In this document: piece by piece, positions 29,283-43,576 of the stretch | Numbering within the stretch: the first letter of the stretch is position 1 | Layout: each line of letters begins with the position of its first letter | Virus record (IMG/VR): IMGVR_UViG_3300037883_000021 | Span: 1-44,019 of that record | DNA: 44,019 bases | Direction: 5' to 3' (one strand) | From: a virus | The notes under the pieces: model-generated | Database searches by the model: none | What the model saw: the letters and a program-made list of their open reading frames with translations, nothing else | Told to the model about the DNA's origin: nothing | Program-made: the position numbers and the translations under genes

Positions 29283-29373
29283 CCCGCTGCCCCCGCCTGG
29301 GTGGGGGCTCCGACACAAGGGCAGCGGGCTTATTCGGGCTCTGGCCGAAGGGAGAGCAAGGCTGCGCCCGAAT
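29283..29373 (-). promoter_or_regulatory. Two large hairpins directly after the major capsid gene
   Basis: The gap 29258-29372 contains ATTCGGGC/GCCCGAAT arms (29332-29339 with 29366-29373, beginning at the capsid stop codon) and a perfect 10-bp stem CCCGCTGCCC/GGGCAGCGGG (29283-29292 with 29319-29328). No T-run follows either. They may stabilise capsid mRNA, mark a processing site or partly attenuate the downstream genes. Confidence 0.65.
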
Positions 29374-30395
29374 TACTGATACTGCATAGAGATGATGCTG
29401 AGTGCCTCAGGCCGCACTGCCCACCCTGAAGTGATACGCTGCTCGCTGAGCACATCCACTGCGCCGCCCGCCAACGGCACTGTGATCTCCTTCGGGGCTG
29501 CCATATCCTGCAGCATCAAGGTACAAGCCTCCAACGAAGGTGTCAGCTTGGCAAACTCGTTGGTGTTGACGCGGGTGCCCTTGGGCTGTTCAACCTCAGG
29601 CATGCAGACAATGACAGCATCATTGCCGCCCGCGCCCTTGCCGATCAGCGTGTCATCGTAGCCCCAAAGAATGTCATCGTCATTCATGGCGAGCACATCC
29701 TTGATCAATCCCGCGGTGCTGGTGGAGCCAGCCCCAACGCGCTGATAAGAAGTGAGCTGCACGATGTTCTGATATTCCATCGCGCCCAATGTGCGCTGCG
29801 GCCCCACAAACACAAACTTGCGGCCGATGCCGAGTTGGTTGGTGCGGGTCTTGATGGCTTGGACCTGACCAATCAGGAAGAAGGCCATCTGGCCGTTGTC
29901 GTAGGTCACCACTGTGTCATTGCCGCCACTATCAGCTGGCAGATTGATGGCTGTGGCACCTGCGGCATTGACCAGGCCCTCACCATTGGTGGGGTTCATG
30001 CCATAAAGCAAGGCATTGCGCATCAGCTGGAAGGTGGCCTGCCGCATGCCCAGCCGATAGGCATCAGTGATGGACAATCCCCAACGCGCCATTGCGGCGG
30101 TGTCGTGGTGGTCGTATTCAGCGCGCACCCTGATCAGGTAGCTGGGGGCGCTGATCTGGCTGAGGGCAAAGCCCACACCCGGCAGCTGGTTGTAGGCGCT
30201 CTGGCCCGCCGCCATGCGGGTGCGCAGGTCAATGCGCTTGATGTAGGCATAGAGGTCGCCGTCGCCCAACCTGACAAGTGGCCCACCATCCGCCAGCAAC
30301 TCAAAGGCCCCAGAGGCTTGAGTGTATGGCATCAAGGTTTCGGGCAAAGTGTAGGAAGGATGCACCTGGGCAAAGGCCGCTGAGATATTACCCAT
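29373..30395 (-). CDS. Major capsid protein (DUF2184-type)
   Basis: 340 residues, preceded by a strong TAGGAG site. The pattern (FELLADGGPLVRLGDGDLYAYIKRID, then AYRLGMRQATFQLMRNALLYG, then a long central region with FVGPQRTLGAMEYQN and the C-terminal PSLEACTLMLQDMAAP...ITSGWAVRPEAL) matches DUF2184 capsid proteins of myo- and siphophages. It is the main shell subunit. It lies after the protease, scaffold and decoration genes and is followed by strong hairpins, as expected of a highly expressed gene. Confidence 0.85.
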   Translation of the reverse strand: MGNISAAFAQVHPSYTLPETLMPYTQASGAFELLADGGPLVRLGDGDLYAYIKRIDLRTRMAAGQSAYNQLPGVGFALSQISAPSYLIRVRAEYDHHDTAAMARWGLSITDAYRLGMRQATFQLMRNALLYGMNPTNGEGLVNAAGATAINLPADSGGNDTVVTYDNGQMAFFLIGQVQAIKTRTNQLGIGRKFVFVGPQRTLGAMEYQNIVQLTSYQRVGAGSTSTAGLIKDVLAMNDDDILWGYDDTLIGKGAGGNDAVIVCMPEVEQPKGTRVNTNEFAKLTPSLEACTLMLQDMAAPKEITVPLAGGAVDVLSEQRITSGWAVRPEALSIISMQYQ

Positions 30396-31139: not shown

Positions 31140-32126
31140 TCAGGCGGAAGGCCGAGTATTGAAGACAGCCACACGCCGTGCCGGACGCCCAAAGCCCTTC
31201 ACAAAGCTGTCCTTGCCATAGAACACAGTGATGTTCTGGTTGGTATCCGGATTGTGCTTGCGCACCGCCCGCAGTTCACCTTCCCCAAGATCAGTGGGGC
31301 TGGCCGCCGCTGTGATCGCATCAGCATAGACCTGCCTCTCAGCGATGTTGAAGGCCTCCTCAGGCAACTTGGAGAACTTCACGCCCTTCCAGTGCTCAGA
31401 GTGCTTCTTCAGATGAGTGGCAAGCCGCTTGCGGTACGAAAGCAATGACTCACCCTCCAGCGGACGCGGTGCGCGCCCACCAAAGCCTGCAAACACTTCA
31501 TCTGCCCGCGCTTGCGCGTCAGCAAAGGCCGCATGCTCCTCGTCACTGCGTGGCTTCATCATTGAGCTCAACCGCGCGATCTCACGGCGTTGCTCCTCCA
31601 TCTGCCGCTTCAAGGCGCTGACACTGTCCGCCTTCTTAGACTTGTCATCACGACGATCATCATCGTCGTCATCGTCGTCGTCTTTCTTTTCCTCTTCTTC
31701 CTCATCGTCGTCGGACTTCTTGGCGTCCTTCTTGGCATCCTTCTTGTCCGACACCGGCGGGATTTTGCCCTTCTCCTCGGCGGCAGGAGGAGGCAGCTGG
31801 TCCTTGCGCGCGTCCTTCTTCTTGTCGGCGGCCATGGGAGGCGGCTTCTTACCTTCCTCCTCCTCACCATCGTCGTCGTCATCATCCTTCTTTTCAAGGA
31901 ATGCGGGCTTTTTGTCCTCACCCTCTTCCTCTTCATCATCCTTCTTCTTGTCATCATCATCATCATCGTCGTCGTCATCCTTGCGGCCCTTGTCGGCCTT
32001 CAAGGGGTTCTTGGAGCCACTGCCAACCTCAAGCGCATCCATGCGCTTGCCGAGAGAGTCAAGCTTCGACAACACTTTGTCGAGGGGCTCACCGCCTTCG
32101 GCGTCTGTCTTTACCTTATCAACCAT
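31140..32126 (-). CDS. Acidic scaffold-like protein with Asp/Glu/Lys blocks
   Basis: 328 residues from the ATG at 32126, which overlaps the protease gene by 8 bases. The middle (about 45-180) is extreme low complexity: several blocks of consecutive Asp or Glu alternating with Lys-rich blocks and PPP linkers. It is followed by a coiled coil (ALKRQMEEQRREIARLSSMM) and a folded C-terminal part ending FGRPARRVAVFNTRPSA. Position between the protease-like gene and the capsid, plus the helix and charge, fit a scaffold. The long acidic tracts may mimic DNA or bind the basic inner shell. Confidence 0.65.
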   Translation of the reverse strand: MVDKVKTDAEGGEPLDKVLSKLDSLGKRMDALEVGSGSKNPLKADKGRKDDDDDDDDDDKKKDDEEEEGEDKKPAFLEKKDDDDDDGEEEEGKKPPPMAADKKKDARKDQLPPPAAEEKGKIPPVSDKKDAKKDAKKSDDDEEEEEKKDDDDDDDDDRRDDKSKKADSVSALKRQMEEQRREIARLSSMMKPRSDEEHAAFADAQARADEVFAGFGGRAPRPLEGESLLSYRKRLATHLKKHSEHWKGVKFSKLPEEAFNIAERQVYADAITAAASPTDLGEGELRAVRKHNPDTNQNITVFYGKDSFVKGFGRPARRVAVFNTRPSA

Positions 32127-32850
32127 GTTTGGTCTCCATTTTCGTAATGCGCCGTTCCAAGCGCCCAACGGCTCGGGTTATCATATGGCGGGTGAGCCGC
32201 CTCTCTAGTCTATCCACACTGTCCGCAATTACGAGCAATCGCGGGTCGGCTTCAGGCAACGACACACTATCCACTCGGATACCACTTGGCGCTCCACCTT
32301 TGTCCCATACCCCTTTTTCGCATACAGCGAGATGGTCAACATAACTGGGAGATCCCTCAACCAGCATTGTAGAGCCGTCCTGGAGCTCAACTTCGTAGTT
32401 GACTTTAGGGTCTCTGAAGACAACAGAAGGGGAAGTGGATAGGTCTCCTTCCAGAATTTCCTTGCCGATAGTACGGTCGTAGATGCGTGCCACACCCCAG
32501 ACATCCTCGCCCTTGATATAGGGCAGTTGCATGGTACCGATCACTTGCTGCGCAAAGCTATCACTGTCCAGTGTGCTAGCTTCTGGGTGCTCATAGATGA
32601 TGGGCATGCCAGCAGCGCGCTTCAGAAAGTCATCCGTCAAGTAGTTCTCTGGACGGCGATACACCCACTCGTTGAGCTTGGGCCGGTAGCTGATGCCTGT
32701 GCCAGAGATGCGCATGTCCACCAGCAACGCATTCTCAAACATCTGCGGCGAAGCCAACTCTCCATCACGAATGGCCTCAGCCACCTCATACTCATTCATT
32801 CGCAGCCGACGTAGCGCGATAATGACGCCAGGATGGAGCTCAAACGTCAT
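32119..32850 (-). CDS. DUF2213 prohead protease-like protein
   Basis: 243 residues. The core RISGTGISYRPKLNEWVYR, then GMPIIYEHPEASTL, VIGTMQLPYIKGEDVWGVARIYD and EILEGDLSTSPSVVF is characteristic of DUF2213, a family regarded as phage capsid maturation proteases. Catalytic residues cannot be named with confidence. The C-terminus is helical and basic (LERRLTRHMITRAVGRLERR). The start overlaps the previous gene by 11 bases. It probably processes scaffold and capsid. Confidence 0.75.
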   Translation of the reverse strand: MTFELHPGVIIALRRLRMNEYEVAEAIRDGELASPQMFENALLVDMRISGTGISYRPKLNEWVYRRPENYLTDDFLKRAAGMPIIYEHPEASTLDSDSFAQQVIGTMQLPYIKGEDVWGVARIYDRTIGKEILEGDLSTSPSVVFRDPKVNYEVELQDGSTMLVEGSPSYVDHLAVCEKGVWDKGGAPSGIRVDSVSLPEADPRLLVIADSVDRLERRLTRHMITRAVGRLERRITKMETKHG

Positions 32851-33061
32851 ACCCCAACCCGCGCAGCATTTCGAGTTCCTCTTCCTCGGTCAAGCGTGCC
32901 GGTGCCGGCTCTGCTGACTGCTCCTTGAAGCTGTTCCGCAATGCCTCAAATTCAGGGTTTGGGTCCTGGGTCAACGCCTTTGGGTCCTCGGCCCACTTGG
33001 CTTCAAAGTAGGCTTGCTCCTCGGGAGTCAAGGTGTCATCTGCTTTTGGAGGCTTTGCCAT
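32840..33061 (-). CDS. Small acidic helical protein (73 aa)
   Basis: Start at the ATG overlapping the upstream stop (TGATG), with GAGGAGGTG at the right spacing; a GTG lies one codon upstream. The product is acidic and helical (TLTPEEQAYFEAKWAEDPKA, LTEEEELEMLRGLGYDV). No family is recognised. It sits between the ADP-ribosyltransferase fusion and the protease-like gene. Confidence 0.6.
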   Translation of the reverse strand: MAKPPKADDTLTPEEQAYFEAKWAEDPKALTQDPNPEFEALRNSFKEQSAEPAPARLTEEEELEMLRGLGYDV

Positions 33062-35598
33062 CACACCTCCTCCATATGAATCTCATTGCCCACTATCTTG
33101 GTGACCATGAAACTAGTACCATACTTGAACAATGCCTCTGACTCACCGTAGTGGGGCGACAAACCTTGCACATCCTTGCAGGCACTGTTCTGGGCCTTAG
33201 TCTTGATCACATAGTGATGGGTGCCGCTCCAGACACCTTTTTTCTTGGCACAGCTGGTGAAGCCTTGCTCCTTCTTAAGATGACCCACAATGTATTTCTT
33301 AAATTCCTTAGCTGGGAGTGATGCCTTACGATAAACGGTTTGGCCATTATGGCTCGGCATCTTGTCCATAGCAGCATTGGTTGATTCCGCGAACTCATAA
33401 GTCTCCTTGGTCATCACGCTATTGCGCAATGGTTGATTCAGCGAACGCGACATCGGCCCGCAATAAGCATAAATGTGCACCGCCTCCCGGCCACTCAGGC
33501 CATAAGCCTTGCCCATGCTCTTGGCTTTACTGAAATCAGCAATAGCACCCATCAATGCATGCTTACTATTGGTATACAAAGGCTGCCCGGCATGCTCATC
33601 ATAATCGCTGTAGCGTCGCAACCCGCTGAACATGCTGGCCAGTTCTGCCAGATCCTCTTGCTCGGTGATGCCAGCGGCGAGCATGCTTGATTGCATGGCA
33701 GGCTCGCTCAACATAGCGACATATGCCTCTTTGCTGGTGCCTGTAGCTACTGGGCCTGCGGGCGCAGCGGGTGCGGCTGGTGCTGCTGCTGCGGGCGCGG
33801 CCCCTGACTTGGCCTGACTGACTGCTGTCTGCAATTGCTGCTTGGCTGCCAATCCTGCTGCCTTGGCTGTCTTGATGGTGACAGGATCGCCGGCAGTGAT
33901 GGCCTTGGCAATGGTGTCCTTGCTGGTCAGAAAATCCATCAGCGCATTCACATAAGGCTGTTCATCCGGGGTAGTGCCTATGTGAGTTTGAAAATCACCA
34001 ATGGTCTTCAAATACTCATTAGCTGTCTTCTTCGCTGCCTCAAGCTTGGGCGCATAAGCTGCTGGGTCCTTGTTGTGCTCATAAGTAGCCTCAGCTGCCA
34101 GCAATGCCTCCATGGCAGCAATATTGGCCTTCTTGTGTTCATCAATGGCCTGCACCCAGCCCTTCTTGGCAGGTGCTACTGCCGTTGTTTTCCCCCACAC
34201 AGCATTCTTTTCTGCCTCGGTGAGCGGAGGAGCAGTTTGCTTTTTGAGCGGAGCAGTTGCTGATGCTGCGCCCGCAGCAGTGGGTGTGGGCACCTTGAGC
34301 TGCCAACTCTTAGCCATCTTGAACTTGGCGTCAAAGTACTCCTTGGAAACCTTCTTCTTGAGTAGCTCACGTGCCTTGACGTAGGTCTTCTCCATTGTCT
34401 TAGCAGCGGGAGTGCCCTTGGCAGACTCATAAGCCTTCTTAGCCTCAATGAACTGCTTCATGATGTGCAGCTGGCTGGGCGAGAATGTGTAGGTCTTGCC
34501 ATACATCTTTTCTTCAGCCCAACCTGGCGGCGGCCCTGCGGGTGGCGGTGGCGGTGAAGGTGTTACGGGTGGCGGCGGTGGAGATGGCGTTGCAGGCACC
34601 CATGGCTCATCCCATGGTTCGGCAGCCTTGCTTGTCTTGCCTGCCTTCTTGGCATCGTAGGCCAGCTGACCCTTCAGCAGATTGTATCTGTCTACAAACT
34701 TGTCATACAGATCTTTAGCGTTCTTCAAGCCAGACTGCTTGAAGGCCCACTGCACATTATCCAGGTTGAGATTGTCAAGCTTCTCCTTGACCTTGGTAAA
34801 CAACTCTGGGTTGTTGCCGAACAACTTGCTAAACACCTTGCCAGCAGGATATTGCGGATCCATCAACGAGAAATAGGAATCAATGTTGTCGCCATAATCC
34901 TTGGGTTGGCCTTGCGCTCGGAACTCAAAGGCCCCACCAAGATCCATCTGCACCAGCTTCTTAGTTTGATTGTCATAGGCAATATTGTCATAAACCAGCC
35001 CCACAGTGTCCCAATTGTTGGTGAGCACCGCAGCGCCGAACATGTCTGCCAATTGTTCCTTCTCTTCAACCGTCAAGTTGTCCTGAATTTGCAAGGTGTT
35101 TGAGACATTGTCCAAATTCTTATTCCATGGCACCGAAACGCCTTCCTTGCCATCCATGTCGATCACTTCTGGCTTGGTGGTCTCAATGCCTAGCTGCTTC
35201 AACACTTCACCAGCCAAGGCTTCTGTCTTGCCCTGCTGCTCATTTTTGTAAAACTTAACATAATGCTTGTTGTAATCAAGGTCCCTGTAAGTGCCACCAG
35301 GGTTGGAGCCCAATTGTTCACCAACCTTGGTCCAACCCTCAGCCTTATTGGGTTTGGCACCTGATGCTCCAATGCTGGCAAACTTGCCACCTTCGTCGCG
35401 CGGGTGCTTGGCTTCGTCCCAGGCTGCGTCTGCGCGCGCCGCATCATCCTCTGCTTCAAACGGATCAAAGCCCAACATCTCCTTGAGCCAGGCAGGCGCG
35501 ACTGTAGGCTCATCATCATTCGGCTCCTCGCTGGAGCGCCAGTCAGGCTCCTGCTCTTCCTTGATGGGGCCAATGGTGATGTCAGGAAGATCGTCCAC
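33061..35598 (-). CDS. Kinase-fold plus ADP-ribosyltransferase fusion protein (845 aa)
   Basis: A GTG start overlaps the upstream TAG. Domains in order: an acidic leader (1-60); linker KHPRDEGGKFASIGASGAK (64-82); a domain (about 100-300) with the layout of HipA/actin-fragmin-kinase-like phosphotransferases: Lys115 in YVKFYK, NNWDTVGLVYDN (194-205) as catalytic loop and MDLGGAF (Asp219) as the metal motif; a Pro-rich linker (335-358); long Ala/Lys helices (370-600); and a C-terminal ADP-ribosyltransferase (about 640-845) with Arg757 (VYRK), Ser782 (GFTSC) and Glu819-x-Glu821 (GESEALF), the R-S-E signature that moves ADP-ribose from NAD+ to a target. Position in the head module suggests a virion-carried effector; kinase activity is an inference, ART assignment is firmer. 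Confidence 0.78.
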   Translation of the reverse strand: MDDLPDITIGPIKEEQEPDWRSSEEPNDDEPTVAPAWLKEMLGFDPFEAEDDAARADAAWDEAKHPRDEGGKFASIGASGAKPNKAEGWTKVGEQLGSNPGGTYRDLDYNKHYVKFYKNEQQGKTEALAGEVLKQLGIETTKPEVIDMDGKEGVSVPWNKNLDNVSNTLQIQDNLTVEEKEQLADMFGAAVLTNNWDTVGLVYDNIAYDNQTKKLVQMDLGGAFEFRAQGQPKDYGDNIDSYFSLMDPQYPAGKVFSKLFGNNPELFTKVKEKLDNLNLDNVQWAFKQSGLKNAKDLYDKFVDRYNLLKGQLAYDAKKAGKTSKAAEPWDEPWVPATPSPPPPPVTPSPPPPPAGPPPGWAEEKMYGKTYTFSPSQLHIMKQFIEAKKAYESAKGTPAAKTMEKTYVKARELLKKKVSKEYFDAKFKMAKSWQLKVPTPTAAGAASATAPLKKQTAPPLTEAEKNAVWGKTTAVAPAKKGWVQAIDEHKKANIAAMEALLAAEATYEHNKDPAAYAPKLEAAKKTANEYLKTIGDFQTHIGTTPDEQPYVNALMDFLTSKDTIAKAITAGDPVTIKTAKAAGLAAKQQLQTAVSQAKSGAAPAAAAPAAPAAPAGPVATGTSKEAYVAMLSEPAMQSSMLAAGITEQEDLAELASMFSGLRRYSDYDEHAGQPLYTNSKHALMGAIADFSKAKSMGKAYGLSGREAVHIYAYCGPMSRSLNQPLRNSVMTKETYEFAESTNAAMDKMPSHNGQTVYRKASLPAKEFKKYIVGHLKKEQGFTSCAKKKGVWSGTHHYVIKTKAQNSACKDVQGLSPHYGESEALFKYGTSFMVTKIVGNEIHMEEV

Positions 35599-36896
35599 TA
35601 CACCGTCTCCAAGGCTGCTTTCCAGCCCATGAACACCCGTGGGTCAATGTAGGCTGTCAGTGCCACTGAAGGGGTGTTGCCCAACATTTGCGAAACCTGC
35701 TTGGCAACATCCATCACTGACTTCTTGAATGCCTTTGCTGAGGTAGGTGCTGACGCGGCTTTCACCAACTCCTGCGCCGTGGAAGTGCCCACCGCAGTGC
35801 GGAAGTCTTTCACCTTGAAGCCACCCCCGTCCAGCGAGTGAGTGTAGTCGCGCAATGCCGCATCATTGGTCTTGCTGAACAACTTGCCGCTGGCGCCCGC
35901 ACTCTGCGCCCGCTTCAACAACATGTTGGCGATGTCCTTGTCTTGGACTGGGATGTCGAGGTCAACTCCCTTTTTACCCACAAAACGCAGCCGCACGGCA
36001 TCACCATCTTGCACAATGTGTTGGCCTTGGAGGGTCGTGGCCCCATAGGCCAGCTTTTCCGCCTTATAACCACCTTCTTTTTCTTCAGCACCTGGACGCA
36101 CTCCTGTGCTCATGATGAGAGCCAAGCAATCTGCCGCGTCACGAGTGCGCGCATTGTCAGCCTTGCGACCCGCCTCGTTCTGCTTGGCAATGTCAGTGAA
36201 CTTGCCCAGCAGCTCATTGATACGCGCAAACTTCATCACTGCCTGCTTCTCATTGTGCAATGCTGAGTAGTGGTACTGCGTCTTGCCCTTGGCGCTCACT
36301 GAAGTGGCCACCAGCAATGCGGCCGGATCAGGATTGTATCTCACATTCTTGTAGCCAGGAGGTATCTTGATGGCCCGCACATGGATGGGGAGCTCGCCCC
36401 CTTCCGCCGTCTGCCACTGGCCATCGACATTCTTAGCGGCCACCAGTGGATTCTTGGCCCCGACACTGCCCCCTTCGGCAAACTTGCCTTCCTCATCACG
36501 CGGGTGATCGGTCTCACGGAACTCCTGGTCGGCGCGCTTACTGGGCTTTGGTCCCAGAGCCTTGCGCAGCGCCTCAACAGGCATGATCCAGCGCCAATCA
36601 TCATGTTCATCTCGAGCCAGCCTCGGCGAGAACTCATCATCCACATCATACAAGTAGGTAGTCGCGTCGACGCCATTCTTGACGCGCCGACAGAACCATT
36701 TACCAGCATGCCCAGCACGGTATTTGATTTCTTCCCAGACCTCACGCACTGCTGCCTGCTCAGAGGTCTCACCTTCCTCGACCTTGCCACCAGGCAGCGC
36801 CCACTCGCCACCATGATCGCCGCCTTCATGCGCGCGCCGCAATAAGAGCACCTTACCCTCTGGAGTGCGGAACATGATGAAGGCTGCATTGATCAT
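35598..36896 (-). CDS. Nudix hydrolase - topoisomerase IB fusion (432 aa)
   Basis: Residues 1-120 are a Nudix domain: the box runs from Gly37 to Tyr59 ([20 protein letters not shown], then EIKY), complete except Lys58 in place of the usual Gly. Linker [20 protein letters not shown] spans 129-148. Residues about 165-432 match topoisomerase [22 protein letters not shown] and KTQYHY in the N-terminal lobe; Arg267 (STGVRPG), Lys308/309 (VGKKG), Arg366 (KDFRTAVGT), Asn407 (LGNTP) and the nucleophile Tyr416 (AYIDP). Bacterial-type TopIB also has Asn at the place of the viral His. The ATG overlaps the upstream stop. Finding this pair fused in a head gene cluster is unusual. Confidence 0.85.
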
Positions 36897-37118: not shown

Positions 37119-37621
37119 CGCGCAACTGCCCCCGCATAATCCTTCTTCTCTTTCTCCTCAAAGGCATCCATGCGCTTGCTGAGCCCATCAACAGCGTCCT
37201 CGATGTGCTTGACAATCAAGTCGCTATCCTGCTTGGTCTCCAGCTCAGTGAGCGCATCAGCCTTCTTACCCAGCGCCTTGCGAGTCTGCGACCTGATTTC
37301 GTCGCGCAATGACCTGATCTGCTCCTTGGTGTCATCGATAGCGTTCTGGCGTTCTTGCCCTTCATCAACCTGCTCCTGTTCACGCTCCAGCGCCTCCAGC
37401 TGCTGCTCGGCGTCCTTCAGCTGAGTTGGAAGGTCTTGCGCTTCTTGCTCTTCATCTTCCTGCTTCTTTTCACCTGGCTCGGTCTCGGCATCAGCTTTGT
37501 CGACGCCCTTGATAGTGCCCTTGTTCTTGGAGGCATAGAAGACAGCTTCACCTTTTTCTTTGCCATAGTTCTGCTGCATCGCCCCCTTGATCTTCTCACC
37601 CTTTTCCGTCAGTGGCATCAT
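37115..37621 (-). CDS. Coiled-coil protein with GEKIKGAMQ...[15 protein letters not shown] head
   Basis: 168 residues; the ATG overlaps the fibre stop (ATGA). Residues 2-40 form a compact motif ([18 protein letters not shown], then [19 protein letters not shown]) that I recognise at the ends of various phage structural proteins. From about 45 to 160 it is a long acidic coiled coil ([20 protein letters not shown]). It could act in head assembly, possibly with the acidic scaffold-like protein. Function not established. Confidence 0.6.
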
Positions 37622-39231
37622 CTGCCTCCCTCTAGTTCAGCGACACGCTTGCGCAGCGATTGCAGCTCAGAGACCAAATAGGGCACCAGTTTGGAATAAT
37701 CTGCGCCCCACAAATGGGGTCCATGATCTGCGACTTTCCTGCCAGGTGGATCTGGCAACGGCGGAGTGACGGCCATCGGCGCCACCTCATAAAGCTCCTG
37801 GGCTACAAAGCCATGTCCAGTGTTTGACGGTGCTCTGGTCTGGGCTACAACGTCAAACGCTGGTGCTGGTGGTTTCCATTCAAAGGCCACAGGCCTCATG
37901 TTGTCAATTAGCTCACCTACATCGATATCGTCTTCAAGATCGCGGATATTGTCTTTGATGCTCCTGTCGCAGGTAGTGTTGTAGGATGTAGTTGAACCGT
38001 TGGTGTAGATATTGCCAACATTGTTGCCGCCAGCCGTATAATAAGTGAGATAGGCACTGGTGCTGTCAGAACGCGTCAGATTGGCATAACCAACGCCGGA
38101 TGCTGTCGCGATCTGGTAGGAAGATGCCGACCAACCTGCGGAGTTCCCTGAGGGATTGGAGGTTGATAGATTGCCACCATTGTTGGTGCTATTTGACAGA
38201 TAGAGGCCGCCAGTTCCCAAATTGATGGCAGCAGCACCGCCCATTGTCAGGCCACCCGTCATCGTGCCCCCAGCAAGTGGCAGGCGCGAAGTGTCGCTCG
38301 GATGGATGTGGTCGGCACGAGCATAGTTTAAAGAAGTGCCAATCGCTACCGCTCCATCCATCAATGGATTGGTAGTTGACGGTGCTGGTCCTCCTGATGC
38401 TGGAGTTGTCCATATGGTATCGTAGTTGGTCGCCGAGTTCTTGGTGAGCACCTGATTGGTGGTGCCACCTGTTGGAACACCTTGACCTGCGGCGCCAGTT
38501 GGTCCTGCTGGGCCTGTGGCACCTGTGAGCCCTGTGGCCCCTGTAGCGCCTGTTGGGCCTGCTGGGCCAGTGTTGCCGATTGGCCCTTGCGGCCCGGTAG
38601 CGCCCGTAAGCCCTATGGGTCCTTGCGGCCCAGTAGCGCCGGTATTGCCGATTGGCCCCTGTGGCCCTGTCGCGCCGGTGTTGCCTGGAACGCCTTGTGG
38701 ACCTGCTGCGCCTGTGGCGCCTGTCAGCCCTATTGGGCCTTGCGGACCAGTAGGACCTGCTGGTCCTGCCGCGCCAGTTGCTCCAGGTGGTCCAGCAGCG
38801 CCTGCCGATCCAGGAGGACCAGTTGGACCCGCAGGTCCGGTTGGTCCAGGCGGTCCTGGAGCTCCGCCTCCACCAGGGGCCGTAGTATCGACAGCAGCTT
38901 GTTCAAACCAACTTGCCTTGCCATCCCAATAATAGTTGCCTAAGCTCTTGTTGCTGATGATCCGGTTGACATTGCCCAACAAGTTGATGCTGGGCGGATT
39001 ATGCTTAATGGTGATGGTGCCACCACTCGGCTCAAACACCACATTCTTAGTGACAGGTATCCCAACTTCACCCTCACCGAACGAAGTGATAGTGCCTGTG
39101 CCATACAACACTACCCGATTGGTGTCGACGCTATTGTCGGGTGGTGCCAGCGGGTTGATACCAATGGACGAAACCTGGAAGCTCTCGCTAGGAGCTTCGC
39201 CTTGCGCATTACTGAAGGCTGATATCGCCAT
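37618..39231 (-). CDS. Collagen-like fibre with S74 domain, catalytic Ser replaced by Cys
   Basis: 537 residues. After a 115-residue N-terminal domain comes about 125 residues of Gly-x-y collagen repeats (121-250), then stalk motifs ([30 protein letters not shown]), a Gly/Ser/Asn-rich head and a C-terminal S74 domain ([30 protein letters not shown], coiled coil). Where other S74 domains in this genome have Ser five residues before the Lys, this one has Cys421 (CDRSIK; codon 37969-37971). It may cleave by Cys or not at all. Its place among head genes suggests a head fibre or whisker. Confidence 0.85.
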
Positions 39232-39234
39232 GTA

Positions 39235-40314
39235 TCAATAAGTGCCAGCATCCAGCGTCATGTTCTCTGCATATTGCAGGGTGACGGGTTGCATGGCTCC
39301 CACCGGATCAGCATCAAGGTTCAACGCACCAAACAACGTGCCACCGCCCAATGACAAGTAGAGCGTATCAGCTGCTGCCTGCGTCAGCCCCGCGCCAATG
39401 ATGACCTGGTAGATGGACAGATTGTCATTCCAGATAATCAAATCACCGTCTTCAAAGGTGGTGCCCAACGGGAACCCAGGCAGCGCCACTGTAGTGGTGC
39501 CAGCAGCAGACATGTAGTAATCACCTGCCGCGTTGCCTGCTACCACCGTCAGATCAGGGGTGTTGCTGGCCGGATCATAAGTGCCCTGGAACAACCGCAA
39601 GGCGGCCACTTGGGTGTCAACATAGTTCTTGTTGGCAGCCTCACCCGGATTGACTGGCGCAAGAGTGACCAGTGGCCCCGACATAGTGCCACCAGCCAGA
39701 TCAAGTTTAGCAGTATCGCTGACATGCTGGTGATCTTGACGGGCATAAGCCGTCGAAATGCCCACCGCGCCCGCGCCATCCATTGGAGACTGAATGACGG
39801 CTGGCGCTGGCACTACAATGCCAGCCAGACCAAAGGCTACTGCATTGTCAACATAAAATGTGCTAGCAATTTGATTGTCACTGCTACCAGCCAGGGCATT
39901 AGGCACCCTTGGTGTGCCCAGGAACAAGGGTGATAACAGCGGCGCATAAGGCAGCAGTTCTGTGGTAAGGTCAAGGTCAGTGATATCAGCCATCACCAAG
40001 GTGACAGTGCCAGTCTTGCCAGCGACGCTACTGACCGCACCGCCCGCTGGTGTCCAGCTGGCTGAGGGTGGAGGCTGGCCTGTGTTGGGAGCATTGGCTC
40101 TGTAAATGTTGCCGCCAGAGAGCACATGATCGCCAACCACATAATTGGCAACAGCACTCCAGAAGCGCACTGCCAGCAGTTGCTGTCCAGAAGTGCCATC
40201 ATGCACCCCAAACGCCATATCGCCCCAATTGACCCAGGGCGAGCCCGCAGTAGTGCCACCTGGAGGAACAGAACCAGGGGTGGAGGAGCGCAGGATGTTA
40301 AGGATATTTGCCAT
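39235..40314 (-). CDS. Fibre-like virion protein without S74 domain (359 aa)
   Basis: Start at the ATG at 40314 behind TAGGAA. The N-terminus (ILNILRSSTPGSVPPG...SPWVNWGDMAFGV, then YVVGDHVLSGGNIYRANAP and SWTPAGG) is the same module as in the S74 fibre at 9933-11093; the second half of it resembles a chitin-binding type 5/12 fold. Then come GKTGTVTL, ASTFYVDNAV, YARQDHQHVSDTAKLDLAGGTMSG and AANKNYVDTQV stalk motifs. It lacks a chaperone domain, so it may trimerise with a neighbour's help. Probably a head fibre. Confidence 0.75.
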   Translation of the reverse strand: MANILNILRSSTPGSVPPGGTTAGSPWVNWGDMAFGVHDGTSGQQLLAVRFWSAVANYVVGDHVLSGGNIYRANAPNTGQPPPSASWTPAGGAVSSVAGKTGTVTLVMADITDLDLTTELLPYAPLLSPLFLGTPRVPNALAGSSDNQIASTFYVDNAVAFGLAGIVVPAPAVIQSPMDGAGAVGISTAYARQDHQHVSDTAKLDLAGGTMSGPLVTLAPVNPGEAANKNYVDTQVAALRLFQGTYDPASNTPDLTVVAGNAAGDYYMSAAGTTTVALPGFPLGTTFEDGDLIIWNDNLSIYQVIIGAGLTQAAADTLYLSLGGGTLFGALNLDADPVGAMQPVTLQYAENMTLDAGTY

Positions 40315-40325
40315 GGTTCTTTTTC

Positions 40326-40616
40326 CTAATAAGGACCACAATCAACTGTGCCATCAGGGTCAATGCCACTACCACCACCACTGCCAGGTGGTCCTGGCGG
40401 ACCCGGCGGACCCGTAGGTCCTGGTGGCCCAGCAACTCCATCAAGACCTGGCGGCCCTTGAGCGCCCGGTGGACCTGGTTGTGGACCAGGACCCGCAGGT
40501 GGTGCGGCCTTGGTCGGAGCTGGACTGGTAAACTGAACAGGTCTAGCCCGTCCAACATAGCCTGCGCGCCCAACAACACCAGTACGGATCTGCCAGAGTG
40601 AGCGTGAGGTGGGCAT
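40326..40616 (-). CDS. Short collagen-like protein (96 aa)
   Basis: After about 40 basic residues ([20 protein letters not shown]) the protein has a Gly-x-Pro collagen stretch (about residues 42-78: [20 protein letters not shown] and on) and ends [13 protein letters not shown]. Starts one base after the head morphogenesis stop. It may form a triple helix with, or act as a cap for, the larger collagen-like fibre two genes downstream. Confidence 0.75.
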
Positions 40617-40617
40617 G

Positions 40618-41493
40618 TCACTCAGCCGCTGCTGCTAGCTCAACTTCATCAAGTGCCGCCAGCGCTGCCTGGCCCTTCTTGGTCAGCATCACCGCTGGCA
40701 GCGCATCCAGGTTGTAGATGTACTCATAATAGCAGCGGCAGTAAACCTCCTCAGCGGGCTGGGTGATCTCGTCAGTGTAGCCTGCCTTGGATGGCTTCAT
40801 CAGCCCTTGCTCCAGCGCCCAGTTGCCACGAATTGTATAGATGTTGAGATCACGCTCCTTGTGATCCTCACGATAGTTATAATTGCGTTGACGCCAGTTA
40901 GAATGCCAAATTCCTGCAATAGCTCCTGTTCCCAGCGCAAAAGTCGCGTTGAGGGAACTATTGAGCTTATGGCCCTGGTCGGTGTTGAGCCGGTTGGTCT
41001 CATAGCGCACCTTCCTGAAATCTTTGAGCAGCAGGTTGGTTTGCTTGGCAGGTGGGGTTGGGGTCCCGCCTGGAGGCACGGAGGACGCCCAACCCCGGAA
41101 CCGACGTAAGGTGGCGGCGAGGCTCTCCTCACGGCGGATCTTGATCAGATCGGCGCTGGCCGCTATGCGCCGATCAAGCTCATTGCGCATGATGCTGGCC
41201 AACTGTGGTAAGCTTTGGATGTGGCGGAAATACATCTCTGGGCCCATGCGCCGCGCAGTAACGGCTTGCAGTTTTGCCAGATGGGGTGGCAACTTGCGCG
41301 TAGCCCGTTGGTAGACGCTGCTCAGGTGACGCGCGATACGCTCACTGGCCTCAGTTGGTGAAATCAATGCACCTGTAGCTGCCGCCTCGATACGCTGGGC
41401 CCAAGTGTCAAGGGCTGACTCGGAAGTGTAGCCATTTTGCGCAAAGTACTTGACAGCATCACGGATCACTTGCTGAAAGTCGCGCAGGCTCAT
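40618..41493 (-). CDS. Head morphogenesis protein (SPP1 gp7 / Mu F-like)
   Basis: 291 residues from the ATG at 41493 (ATGA overlap). Helical and basic, with [55 protein letters not shown], then a C-terminal [20 protein letters not shown] and [13 protein letters not shown] motif, which is characteristic of minor head proteins of the SPP1 gp7/Mu gpF group. Its place just after the portal gene agrees. Such proteins enter the prohead with the portal and often go with the DNA into the host. Confidence 0.78.
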
Positions 41494-41852
41494 GCTGTGG
41501 TGACGTTGATGGTTACTCCGGCCGGACAACTCTTAAAATAGAGCCCCTGACTGAAGGGTATATTCATGTTGGGGCCACCAATGGTGCCGGGTGGCGACGC
41601 AGCTGGCGCGCCCGGAATGCCCGGAATGTTGGGCTTGGTGCCATAGATGAAATCCAGCGCCGACAATGGTGCAGAGAACAGGGTGCGAGATGAATAAGGA
41701 TCATAATTGGCCGAGGTAGCATCACAAAAGGTAATGGGTGTCACCCTGTCGGCCTGCGAAGGCGGCATCACCACACTGACACCAGTGAGGGTACCAGCTG
41801 CTTGCACCAAGGCTGTCCCCAGTTCTGATGAAGTGGCACTAAAATTCCCCAT
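41490..41852 (-). CDS. Small virion protein after portal (120 aa)
   Basis: A TAGGAG site precedes the ATG. The sequence is Ser/Thr/Pro-rich and beta-like ([51 protein letters not shown]). The last segment resembles the C-terminal strands of small head decoration or minor capsid proteins, but no family is certain. The stop overlaps the next start. Confidence 0.6.
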   Translation of the reverse strand: MGNFSATSSELGTALVQAAGTLTGVSVVMPPSQADRVTPITFCDATSANYDPYSSRTLFSAPLSALDFIYGTKPNIPGIPGAPAASPPGTIGGPNMNIPFSQGLYFKSCPAGVTINVTTA

Positions 41853-41861
41853 GATGATCTC

Positions 41862-43493
41862 CTAGGCCACCGCCCCGGCTTTCTTGTCAAGTATCTTGCG
41901 CAGCTTGTCGATGGGAATGACATCACGCGCCGCTGGCTCAATGGAGTCAAGCACCTGTGCCGCGTTGCTGAAGCGCGCCCGCAAGCTGTCAGCCTTGCCC
42001 ATCTTGATGGCAACTCGCCCGCCACCGTCGCCGCCGCCCGCGCTATCACCGTCCATGCCCCCATTCTTCAGCGCCTCGGTCTGCGCCTCTTGCTGCTCCT
42101 GCATCTGCTGTTCTTGTTCATCTAGATGTTCCTCCAGCGCCTCAAAATCAAGCTCAAGGGGCGCAGAGAAAATCACCTTGTTGGTGGAGATATTATCAGT
42201 GGCCCACTCATACAAGGACAGCTTGTTGGCTGTATCGAGGATTGGCTCAAACACCTGGATGAGCGCGATCACTGCCTTCAGACGCACGTCCTCAAGGCGT
42301 GCCAGCTCACTCTCCGGCTCCTCAAGCACGCTTGGCCATTCGGCCCGGTAGCTGTTGGCCCAGCGGTAGAAGGCGTCCTTGTATTGCATGCCACCATAGG
42401 TCTGCGGGAAATCCTTCTGCATGCCTTCAAAGAATGCCGGTGACCAGGCCCGATACATGCACACCCGATCAAAGAACTTGAACAGCGGCCCCATGCTCTT
42501 GCGGACCCGGTCAATGTAACGCGCGACAGCCCGCGCATCCTCGGTCCCCTCTCCAAAGCCCTCCACAAAGGCTTCTTGCGCCAGGATCTTGATGGGCATG
42601 TCGGCCGCTGTGGCAATGTTCTCCAGAATGTTGCGCCGCGCCAGCGTGTGAGGCGCGTCAATGTTGCTCAGGTTGAGCGACTCAATCTCTTCCTCAGGAG
42701 TGATGTTGATGACGTTGCCTGTCACAGCTTCCTGCACCACATTGCGCTTCCACCCGGCTGCGGCCTTCATGATGGAGTTGGCAATGGAGCCAGCCTGCTT
42801 GATCTTGGCGATCATCACCCCGACCTTGGTCTCAATCATGTCGTCGGTGATCATTGACTTGAGGTAGCTCTTCAGCGGGAAGAAGGCGCGCTGGTAGACG
42901 CTGCGCCCAACAAAGCCGAAGGCTGAGGGTGTCCAAGAAATGTAAACAGGAAATTCATTCTGCAGTGTGATGGCACGGCTGCGGTGAAACTGGCTGCCCT
43001 GCACGGTGATCTCTTGCACCTTCATGAAGTTCATTGCTGTGGGCACCTGGTTGAGCACCAAGCTGCCAGAAGTGTTGAGCGGATCATAGACGTTGAAGGC
43101 CATACTGGCATCTGGCAGCGACCAGGGATCAAGTGGCTCGGTGGGATCAATACCATCCAGCAACAACGCCACAGAGCTAATGCCGTAGACCCGGCTCATC
43201 GCGGCAGTCTGGAAGATGTAAGCGTCAGCGTTGATCTCCTCCCACTGCTCATTGAAGGCTTCCACGACGCGCTCGCCAGGGCTGTCCGGCACATTGAGCT
43301 CACGCCCTTCTGCCATTGCCAACTGCAGTGGCCCACACACCATCTTGAAGCCTAGCGGGTGCCAGAGAAAAATCTGCTTACAAATCTGATAGCTGACCTC
43401 ATCACCTGGTGTGATGTCATTTGCCAGGAATATGGCCTCCAGCGAGTTGCCAAGAGGCGTGGCATCCAGGAAGGAGCTACGGATTAAACTCAT
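41862..43493 (-). CDS. Portal protein (DUF1073-type)
   Basis: 543 residues from the ATG at 43493 (a TTG lies one codon upstream). DUF1073 portal motifs: FLATDITPGDE-like opening (FLANDITPGDEVSYQICKQI), VYGISSVALLLDGID, the long PLKSYLKSMITDDMIETKVG helix, LSNIDAPHTLARRNILENIA and AEDARAVARYIDRVRKS-like block (TEDARAVARYIDRVRKSMG). The C-terminus is Gln/Glu-rich (LDEQEQQMQEQQEAQTEALK) then Gly-rich. The portal forms the dodecameric DNA gate of the head. Automated tools may call this domain Acb1-like because of fused relatives; here it is the structural portal. Confidence 0.88.
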   Translation of the reverse strand: MSLIRSSFLDATPLGNSLEAIFLANDITPGDEVSYQICKQIFLWHPLGFKMVCGPLQLAMAEGRELNVPDSPGERVVEAFNEQWEEINADAYIFQTAAMSRVYGISSVALLLDGIDPTEPLDPWSLPDASMAFNVYDPLNTSGSLVLNQVPTAMNFMKVQEITVQGSQFHRSRAITLQNEFPVYISWTPSAFGFVGRSVYQRAFFPLKSYLKSMITDDMIETKVGVMIAKIKQAGSIANSIMKAAAGWKRNVVQEAVTGNVINITPEEEIESLNLSNIDAPHTLARRNILENIATAADMPIKILAQEAFVEGFGEGTEDARAVARYIDRVRKSMGPLFKFFDRVCMYRAWSPAFFEGMQKDFPQTYGGMQYKDAFYRWANSYRAEWPSVLEEPESELARLEDVRLKAVIALIQVFEPILDTANKLSLYEWATDNISTNKVIFSAPLELDFEALEEHLDEQEQQMQEQQEAQTEALKNGGMDGDSAGGGDGGGRVAIKMGKADSLRARFSNAAQVLDSIEPAARDVIPIDKLRKILDKKAGAVA

Positions 43494-43576
43494 CAATGAA
43501 AACTTTGCGCTGGAGGGAGGGCAGTGACCCCAGCTGGAGGGAGAAGGTCACCGCCCAAAGATGGACTGCCGCCCAT
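43493..43576 (-). CDS. Possible 27-aa leader ORF coupled to portal
   Basis: An ATG at 43576 opens a short frame whose TGA overlaps the portal ATG (TGATG), the coupling used throughout this operon. The peptide is Pro/Gly-rich (GGSPSLGGDLLPPAGVTALP). Ribosome site is weak, and other frames in the 43497-43744 gap are equally open, so this may be non-coding. The portal ATG itself lacks a clear ribosome site, which would fit coupling. Confidence 0.25.
   Translation of the reverse strand: MGGSPSLGGDLLPPAGVTALPPAQSFH

Follow-up and report, generated by a model that had tools for sequence, protein, structure and literature searches.

We analysed a 44-kb IMG/VR contig of viral origin (record IMGVR_UViG_3300037883_000021, 44,019 nucleotides; the whole stretch is called the window here), which encodes an 845-amino-acid (aa) protein joining a predicted kinase-fold domain to a predicted ADP-ribosyltransferase (ART) domain. 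We consider it probable, at about 0.72, that this protein is packaged in the virion and injected as a two-enzyme effector. The comparisons made here suggest that related viruses likewise pack kinase-ART proteins in the head and inject them as exchangeable tools against the host cell.

Two predicted enzyme domains on one chain

The open reading frame (ORF) runs on the minus strand from 35598 to 33061 and starts with GTG. It is real, and the residues named in an initial annotation of this DNA (K115, a catalytic-loop segment at 194-205, D219, R757, S782 and E819/E821) were all found at the places claimed. None of the fold, residue and profile observations on this ORF is due to chance. Its parts are as follows, sister phages being those whose portal proteins are related to that of the window phage (65-76% identity).

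33061..35598, minus strand: kinase-ART gene, 845 aa, GTG start
35422..35598, minus strand: leader of the MLGFDPF... type, residues 1-59; a like leader carries other cargo in sister phage L242
35380..35421, minus strand: junction motif WDEAKHPRDEGGKF, residues 60-73
34639..35355, minus strand: kinase domain, residues 82-320, with K115, E126, N195, D197, N205 and D219
33682..34638, minus strand: spacer, residues 321-639, with polyproline runs at 340-358 and the rest alanine/lysine-rich
33064..33681, minus strand: ADP-ribosyltransferase domain, residues 640-845, with R757, S782, E819 and E821

Residues 82-320 belonged to no family in Pfam, PHROGs or PDB sequence searches. A tblastn search with the kinase region found eight phages with 29-34% identity; the alignment of these relatives led to at least 471 confirmed IMG/VR loci encoding the kinase, and a larger alignment to 116 genome loci. 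The AlphaFold model, built with 60 sequences, had a predicted local distance difference test score (pLDDT) of 94.7 and a predicted template modelling score (pTM) of 0.91. It presented the elements of a kinase in the usual order, as inferred by reading the secondary-structure string against the sequence: a glycine loop (GSNPGG), beta3 with K115, alphaC with E126, the hinge, a catalytic loop at 195-205, two strands and D219-L-G. The two lobes and the K, E, catalytic D and N, and DxG of a kinase fold were all found; the catalytic-loop-like segment NNWDTVGLVYDN lies at residues 194-205 and D219 lies inside DLGG. Eleven positions (K115, E126, N195, D197, G200, N205, D219, G221, R227, G230 and K233) were identical in 60/60 phage and 53/53 chromosomal sequences.

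Foldseek placed CtkA first (E 3e-6, TM-score about 0.5-0.6), followed by PI3K, MK2, RIOK1 and HipA. At the profile level the family matched CtkA weakly (E 0.16) and two relatives matched HipA_C (best 7.3e-4), while the window protein itself had no significant match to HipA_C or any other named kinase profile. According to the model, residues 82-320 are a complete kinase fold of the HipA/CtkA type, in an unnamed family. The initial annotation had called residues 100-300 kinase-like, provided that the predicted fold was related to kinases, and this held.

The C-terminal domain matched PF03496 at residues 699-837 (28 bits against a curated cut-off of 23.4, E 1.7e-6), and phmmer against PDB sequences gave the Tre1 chains 6dre/6drh as its best matches. 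Its AlphaFold model, based on 52 aligned relatives (pLDDT 84.5), also had Tre1 as the top PDB match (E 2e-11, root-mean-square deviation 2.9), followed by many ARTs of the same class. Among these 52 relatives R757 was conserved in 48, S782 in 43, E819 in 51 and E821 in all. Profile, residues and fold all place the domain in the R-S-E class, with R, S and ExE present on an ART fold whose core is intact in the model, as the initial annotation had proposed. The window ART is thus predicted to be a Tre1-like R-S-ExE ADP-ribosyltransferase, and an ExE motif suggests arginine as the acceptor of ADP-ribose. The long helical spacers also proposed there stood in part: the spacer is partly helical, probably also beyond the modelled ends, but is interrupted by the proline-rich runs at 340-358.

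Recurrent pairing of the kinase with ARTs

Of 50 viral contigs that bear the kinase, 27 contained PF03496, in most cases within the kinase ORF or a nearby gene, compared with 0/50 random IMG/VR contigs (Fisher p 1e-10), the random contigs being unmatched for head modules. With a profile grown from the window ART, an ART was fused to the kinase or within 2.5 kb of it in 50/86 viral loci, a set that includes redundant contigs and seven phage records. Other kinase proteins carried PF01129, DRAT or Scabin-like ARTs, and the pairing is therefore not one inherited fusion. Separate genes near each other encode the pair in Gordonia phage Forza (gp77 portal, gp78 kinase, gp80 ART), and in contig L076 portal, NUDIX-kinase and ART are found in neighbouring genes.

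Two other arrangements of the kinase were observed. Locus L314:1925-5767 has two tandem kinase domains followed by an ART in one chain, and the Pseudomonas juntendi plasmid NZ_CP091089.1, perhaps a phage-plasmid, has a kinase relative at 49037-49666 in a gene annotated as NUDIX domain-containing protein. Pseudomonas putida phage Dolphis, which can be cultured, is a further carrier (gp117).

An exchangeable cargo slot in the head operon

In the order of transcription, the portal gene is followed by those for the head morphogenesis protein, the tail-fibre-like proteins, a 168-aa protein and a NUDIX-topoisomerase IB (TopIB) fusion, and then by kinase-ART, the DUF2213-type head protease, a probable scaffold gene that matches phrog_6216 in its C-terminal part, and the major capsid protein. 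Because of this flanking gene order, from portal to major capsid protein, we regard the kinase-ART gene as embedded in the head operon. The neighbouring features are:

41862..43496, minus strand: portal protein, phrog_146, the query for sister phages
40618..41529, minus strand: head morphogenesis protein, phrog_324
35598..36896, minus strand: NUDIX-topoisomerase IB fusion, 432 aa, adjoining the cargo gene
36450..36557, minus strand: second copy of the junction motif, between NUDIX and TopIB
32119..32850, minus strand: head maturation protease (DUF2213/phrog_6216), bounding the cargo slot on its downstream side
29373..30395, minus strand: major capsid protein

In the sequence TAGTG, the stop codon of the upstream gene and the GTG start of kinase-ART overlap, so that both are probably co-translated by translational coupling. 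Scans for tRNAs and promoters added nothing to this picture. No HipB antitoxin gene was found beside kinase-ART, which is flanked by NUDIX-TopIB on one side and by the head protease on the other.

When phage records were searched at the near-DNA level, none proved related to the window phage; the comparison was made with the sister phages. NUDIX leads directly into the protease, without cargo, in L240/L241, L244 and L245. In L242, NUDIX-TopIB precedes a protein in which a leader like that of the window protein (MLGFDPxD..RADxxWxExxHPRDxxGKF) is followed by a different cargo, and in L247 NUDIX, junction, kinase and ART form one 909-aa ORF, where Pfam confirmed NUDIX and ART. The window has NUDIX-TopIB plus kinase-ART. 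The slot between NUDIX and the head protease is a site of cargo exchange, and kinase and ART were jointly present or jointly absent in the window's sisters. The L242 cargo protein (L242:14104-15459, 452 aa) has an HExxH motif and no Pfam match; it is a possible metallopeptidase.

The motif WxExxHPRDxxGKF precedes the kinase in the window protein, and a near copy precedes TopIB in the adjoining gene. A scan of IMG/VR for ExxHPRDxxGKF gave at least 119 stretches; in the 80 loci kept, it occurred in at least 88 ORFs, with up to four copies per protein. Among the matches listed, 16 unique ORFs had an ART and 11 a whole or partial kinase, some of them from overlapping contigs; other junction ORFs among these matches had zeta toxin, RelA/SpoT, GNAT with ART-PolyVal, TopIB (twice), NUDIX, MuF or a PI3/PI4-HipA_2-type kinase. 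The DUF2213 protease was found in 25/50 junction contigs versus 1/50 random ones, and NUDIX in 20/50 kinase contigs versus 1/50 random ones. We infer that the junction may be a loading or processing signal for head cargo.

The junction as a cut site of the head protease ([FW]xE, resembling the T4-type hydrophobic-x-E) is not proved by its co-occurrence with DUF2213, which may only mean a shared type of head operon. The idea that NUDIX is an ADP-ribose-cleaving partner of the ART was weakened, since sisters fuse NUDIX to the head protease without an ART; NUDIX may be a part of the head. In L282 and L285, too, TopIB is preceded by this junction, and a type IB topoisomerase packaged in the head (35598-36896, minus strand, NUDIX-TopIB) would be unusual. 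Locus L263:955-5016 has four junction copies with GNAT-like and ParB-like domains, and a PI3/PI4-HipA_2-type kinase above the PI3/PI4 cut-off.

Proposed packaging and mechanism

Internal head proteins of T4 are loaded by means of a capsid-targeting sequence (PMC3012670). T4-like contigs encode the kinase on its own, as a protein of about 236-250 aa, and N-termini resembling MKTFKQF were found in the kinases of L014, L017 and L026 and in the kinase-neighbour ARTs of L014, L016, L018 and L019. Three of these loci (L016, L018 and L019) are almost the same in sequence, and in the kinase of L019 the peptide IKTFKQF stands at residue 6. In a set of 12,328 ORFs of at least 80 aa from the loci collected, the MKTFKQF-type pattern, which was composed after the sequences had been seen, matched only those kinases and ARTs and T4 ipII and ipIII. 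In addition, the kinase-ART protein of Yersinia phage fHe-Yen8-01 was marked particle-associated by its depositors.

We propose that the kinase-ART protein would be made late, together with the head proteins, enter the prohead by means of its leader and the WxExxHPRDxxGKF junction, and be ejected together with the DNA when the next cell is infected. There it would ADP-ribosylate and phosphorylate host proteins ahead of phage gene expression.

Several points weigh against packaging and injection of an active two-enzyme protein. The window protein is without a T4-type capsid-targeting N-terminus, and the pattern that describes such N-termini was fitted to them. Only about 58% of the viral kinase loci had an ART by profile, and the random contigs of the PF03496 comparison were unmatched for head modules. 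The catalytic loop NWDxxGxxxDN is unusual for a kinase. Finally, packaging and injection in this phage, the enzyme activities, the host targets and the role of the junction are all predictions from sequences and models. The initial annotation had proposed an injected multi-effector that reprograms or counters the host. The capsid-targeting-type N-termini of relatives, the particle-associated relative and the head-operon slot with its exchangeable cargo are good indirect evidence of injection, which is probable in the window phage; once injected, the protein may reprogram or counter the host.

Partners of the kinase family and alternative explanations

The chromosomal copies, which are unnamed in Pfam and NCBIfam as well, had a different partner. 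All of the small (<500 aa) chromosomal kinases (53/53) were paired with one PTP/DSP phosphatase family, 11 as fusions and 42 nearby, and none (0/53) was linked to an ART by profile; conversely, no viral kinase copy in the 86 viral loci was linked to that phosphatase. The hosts of the small chromosomal kinases include Methylomonas, purple bacteria and Rhodobacter, among others, and a midpoint-rooted tree groups these kinases as a single clade (support 0.82). The motif HCxxGxGRAG was present in the 20/20 upstream phosphatases looked at. A PTP-type partner argues for true phosphotransfer by the kinase family. Loci L104-L170 (e.g., L133:7941-8627, from Methylomonas sp. LW13) would represent an apparently unnamed kinase-phosphatase module.

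The pairing admits a closer relation between the two enzymes: the kinase might act on the ART itself, on whatever the ART modifies or on the ADP-ribose mark, for instance keeping the ART silent in the producing cell or shielding the mark from host hydrolases. Legionella SidJ/SidE is a precedent for a kinase-fold protein acting on an ART. At least four ART families occur linked to the kinase, by fusion or in neighbouring genes, and in the window's sister phages both domains are jointly present or jointly absent, which speaks for such coupling; we hold it as tentative, for some kinase proteins have no detectable ART and other modules stand behind the same junction. ARTs are, moreover, common in phage head cargo anyway (PMC9503650).

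Another explanation is that polyvalent proteins merely collect modules and that kinase and ART co-occur as both are common cargo. The presence of zeta toxin, RelA/SpoT, GNAT, TopIB, NUDIX and MuF behind the same junction speaks for it, as does a random-contig control in which head modules could vary. We find it possible but doubtful: separate kinase genes adjoin ART genes, and the phosphatase link, never seen in phages and always in the small chromosomal copies, indicates that partners are selective. A broader model is likewise speculative. In it, phages of several lineages would have a dedicated, coupled two-mark system of kinase and ART, kin to the chromosomal kinase-phosphatase module with the ART replacing the phosphatase, and WxExxHPRDxxGKF would be a general head-cargo tag for many effectors (zeta toxin, RelA/SpoT, GNAT, TopIB, peptidase-like, kinase and ART).

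It is unlikely that the kinase fold is not a kinase and instead transfers AMP, glutamate or another group, or merely binds a nucleotide. Kinase folds have been repurposed in SidJ and SelO, and the loop NWDxxGxxxDN lacks the HRD form and has a D-N spacing of 8 residues; yet every catalytic position is invariant, the phosphatase accompanying all small chromosomal copies is as expected for reversible phosphorylation, and CtkA, the solved structure most like it, has been described as a kinase. Action late in the producing cell without injection, e.g., excluding superinfecting phages, is improbable: the position between portal and capsid genes suggests late expression and a superinfection role was argued for a HipA-family kinase in the same position in Gratiaviridae phages (PMC8008677), but the capsid-targeting-type N-termini in T4-like relatives, the particle-associated relative and the junction common to kinase-ART and the NUDIX gene near the head protease stand against it.

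Relation to known systems

Earlier work has described ARTs packaged in phage heads, fusions of NUDIX to head proteins, and injected proteins with several domains (PMC5512222, PMC9503650, PMC5576092). Among the nearest systems are the polyvalent proteins of phages and conjugative elements (PMC5512222), which are large, multidomain, head-linked and thought to be injected, and carry ARTs with other effectors; the window protein, with kinase and ART on one chain within the head operon, has at least two effector domains among virion genes, as they do. Its kinase was nevertheless rejected as a member of the polyvalent kinase type, which is of the HxD form with extra residues inserted between H and D and has lost the C-terminal lobe, whereas the window kinase keeps the lobe, with C-terminal helices in the model, and has NxD instead of HxD. 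MuF polymorphic toxins (PMC5576092) also place a variable toxin domain, ARTs among them, on a head protein encoded near the portal, but in the window the junction motif, together with a leader or NUDIX, makes up the constant part; Pfam found no MuF domain in the window protein, and some relatives have one.

The T4 Alt protein is an injected ART, and the kinase and ART of T4-like relatives begin with a peptide similar to that of T4 internal head proteins (PMC3012670, PMC9503650); a kinase partner is undescribed for Alt, and the window protein has a different leader and junction. Tre1 (6dre, 6drh) matches the C-terminal domain best in both sequence and fold and shares its R-S-ExE site, but belongs to a toxin/immunity pair, its partner being an immunity protein; no immunity gene was identified for the window protein, though no search aimed at one was made. 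CtkA of Helicobacter pylori and the HipA kinases (3akk, 4pu5) are the nearest solved folds, with the weak CtkA and HipA_C profile matches given above. The window kinase differs from them in its low identity (about 12%), the lack of a HipB-like antitoxin context, the fusion to an ART and its own loop signature NWDxxGxxxDN. The Gratiaviridae kinase (PMC8008677) is of HipA type and encoded between portal and major capsid protein; as described, it is set apart by the lack of a reported ART and its reading as superinfection immunity.

The initial annotation had singled out the protein as an undescribed system. On the literature searched, this is retained for the kinase family and its pairing but not for head-packaged ARTs and polyvalent effectors, which had been described (PMC5512222, PMC9503650). 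In the literature within reach of the search, which left out most subscription journals and all of bioRxiv, the kinase family, its ART pairing, the capsid-targeting-type forms, the chromosomal phosphatase partner and the junction motif were undescribed, and nothing was found on CtkA with HipA, HipA with tyrosine phosphatase, or phage fHe-Yen8-01.

The results describe a widespread kinase-fold family, outside the libraries searched, whose regular partner is an ART in phages and a PTP-type phosphatase on chromosomes. An injected kinase is predicted to be able to act ahead of any phage gene expression. The HPRDxxGKF junction offers a sequence handle for head-linked effectors in unannotated phages, and makes testable how head cargo is loaded outside the T4 group, a question whose best-known answer is the capsid-targeting sequence of T4.

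Tail-fibre-like genes of the window

Two tail-fibre-like genes (37618-39231 and 39235-40341, minus strand) separate the head morphogenesis gene from the cargo genes. Their features are, in this order, collagen repeats with a Peptidase_S74 chaperone and a carbohydrate-binding-like character. The corresponding stretch between head morphogenesis and cargo genes is shorter in the sister loci than in the window.
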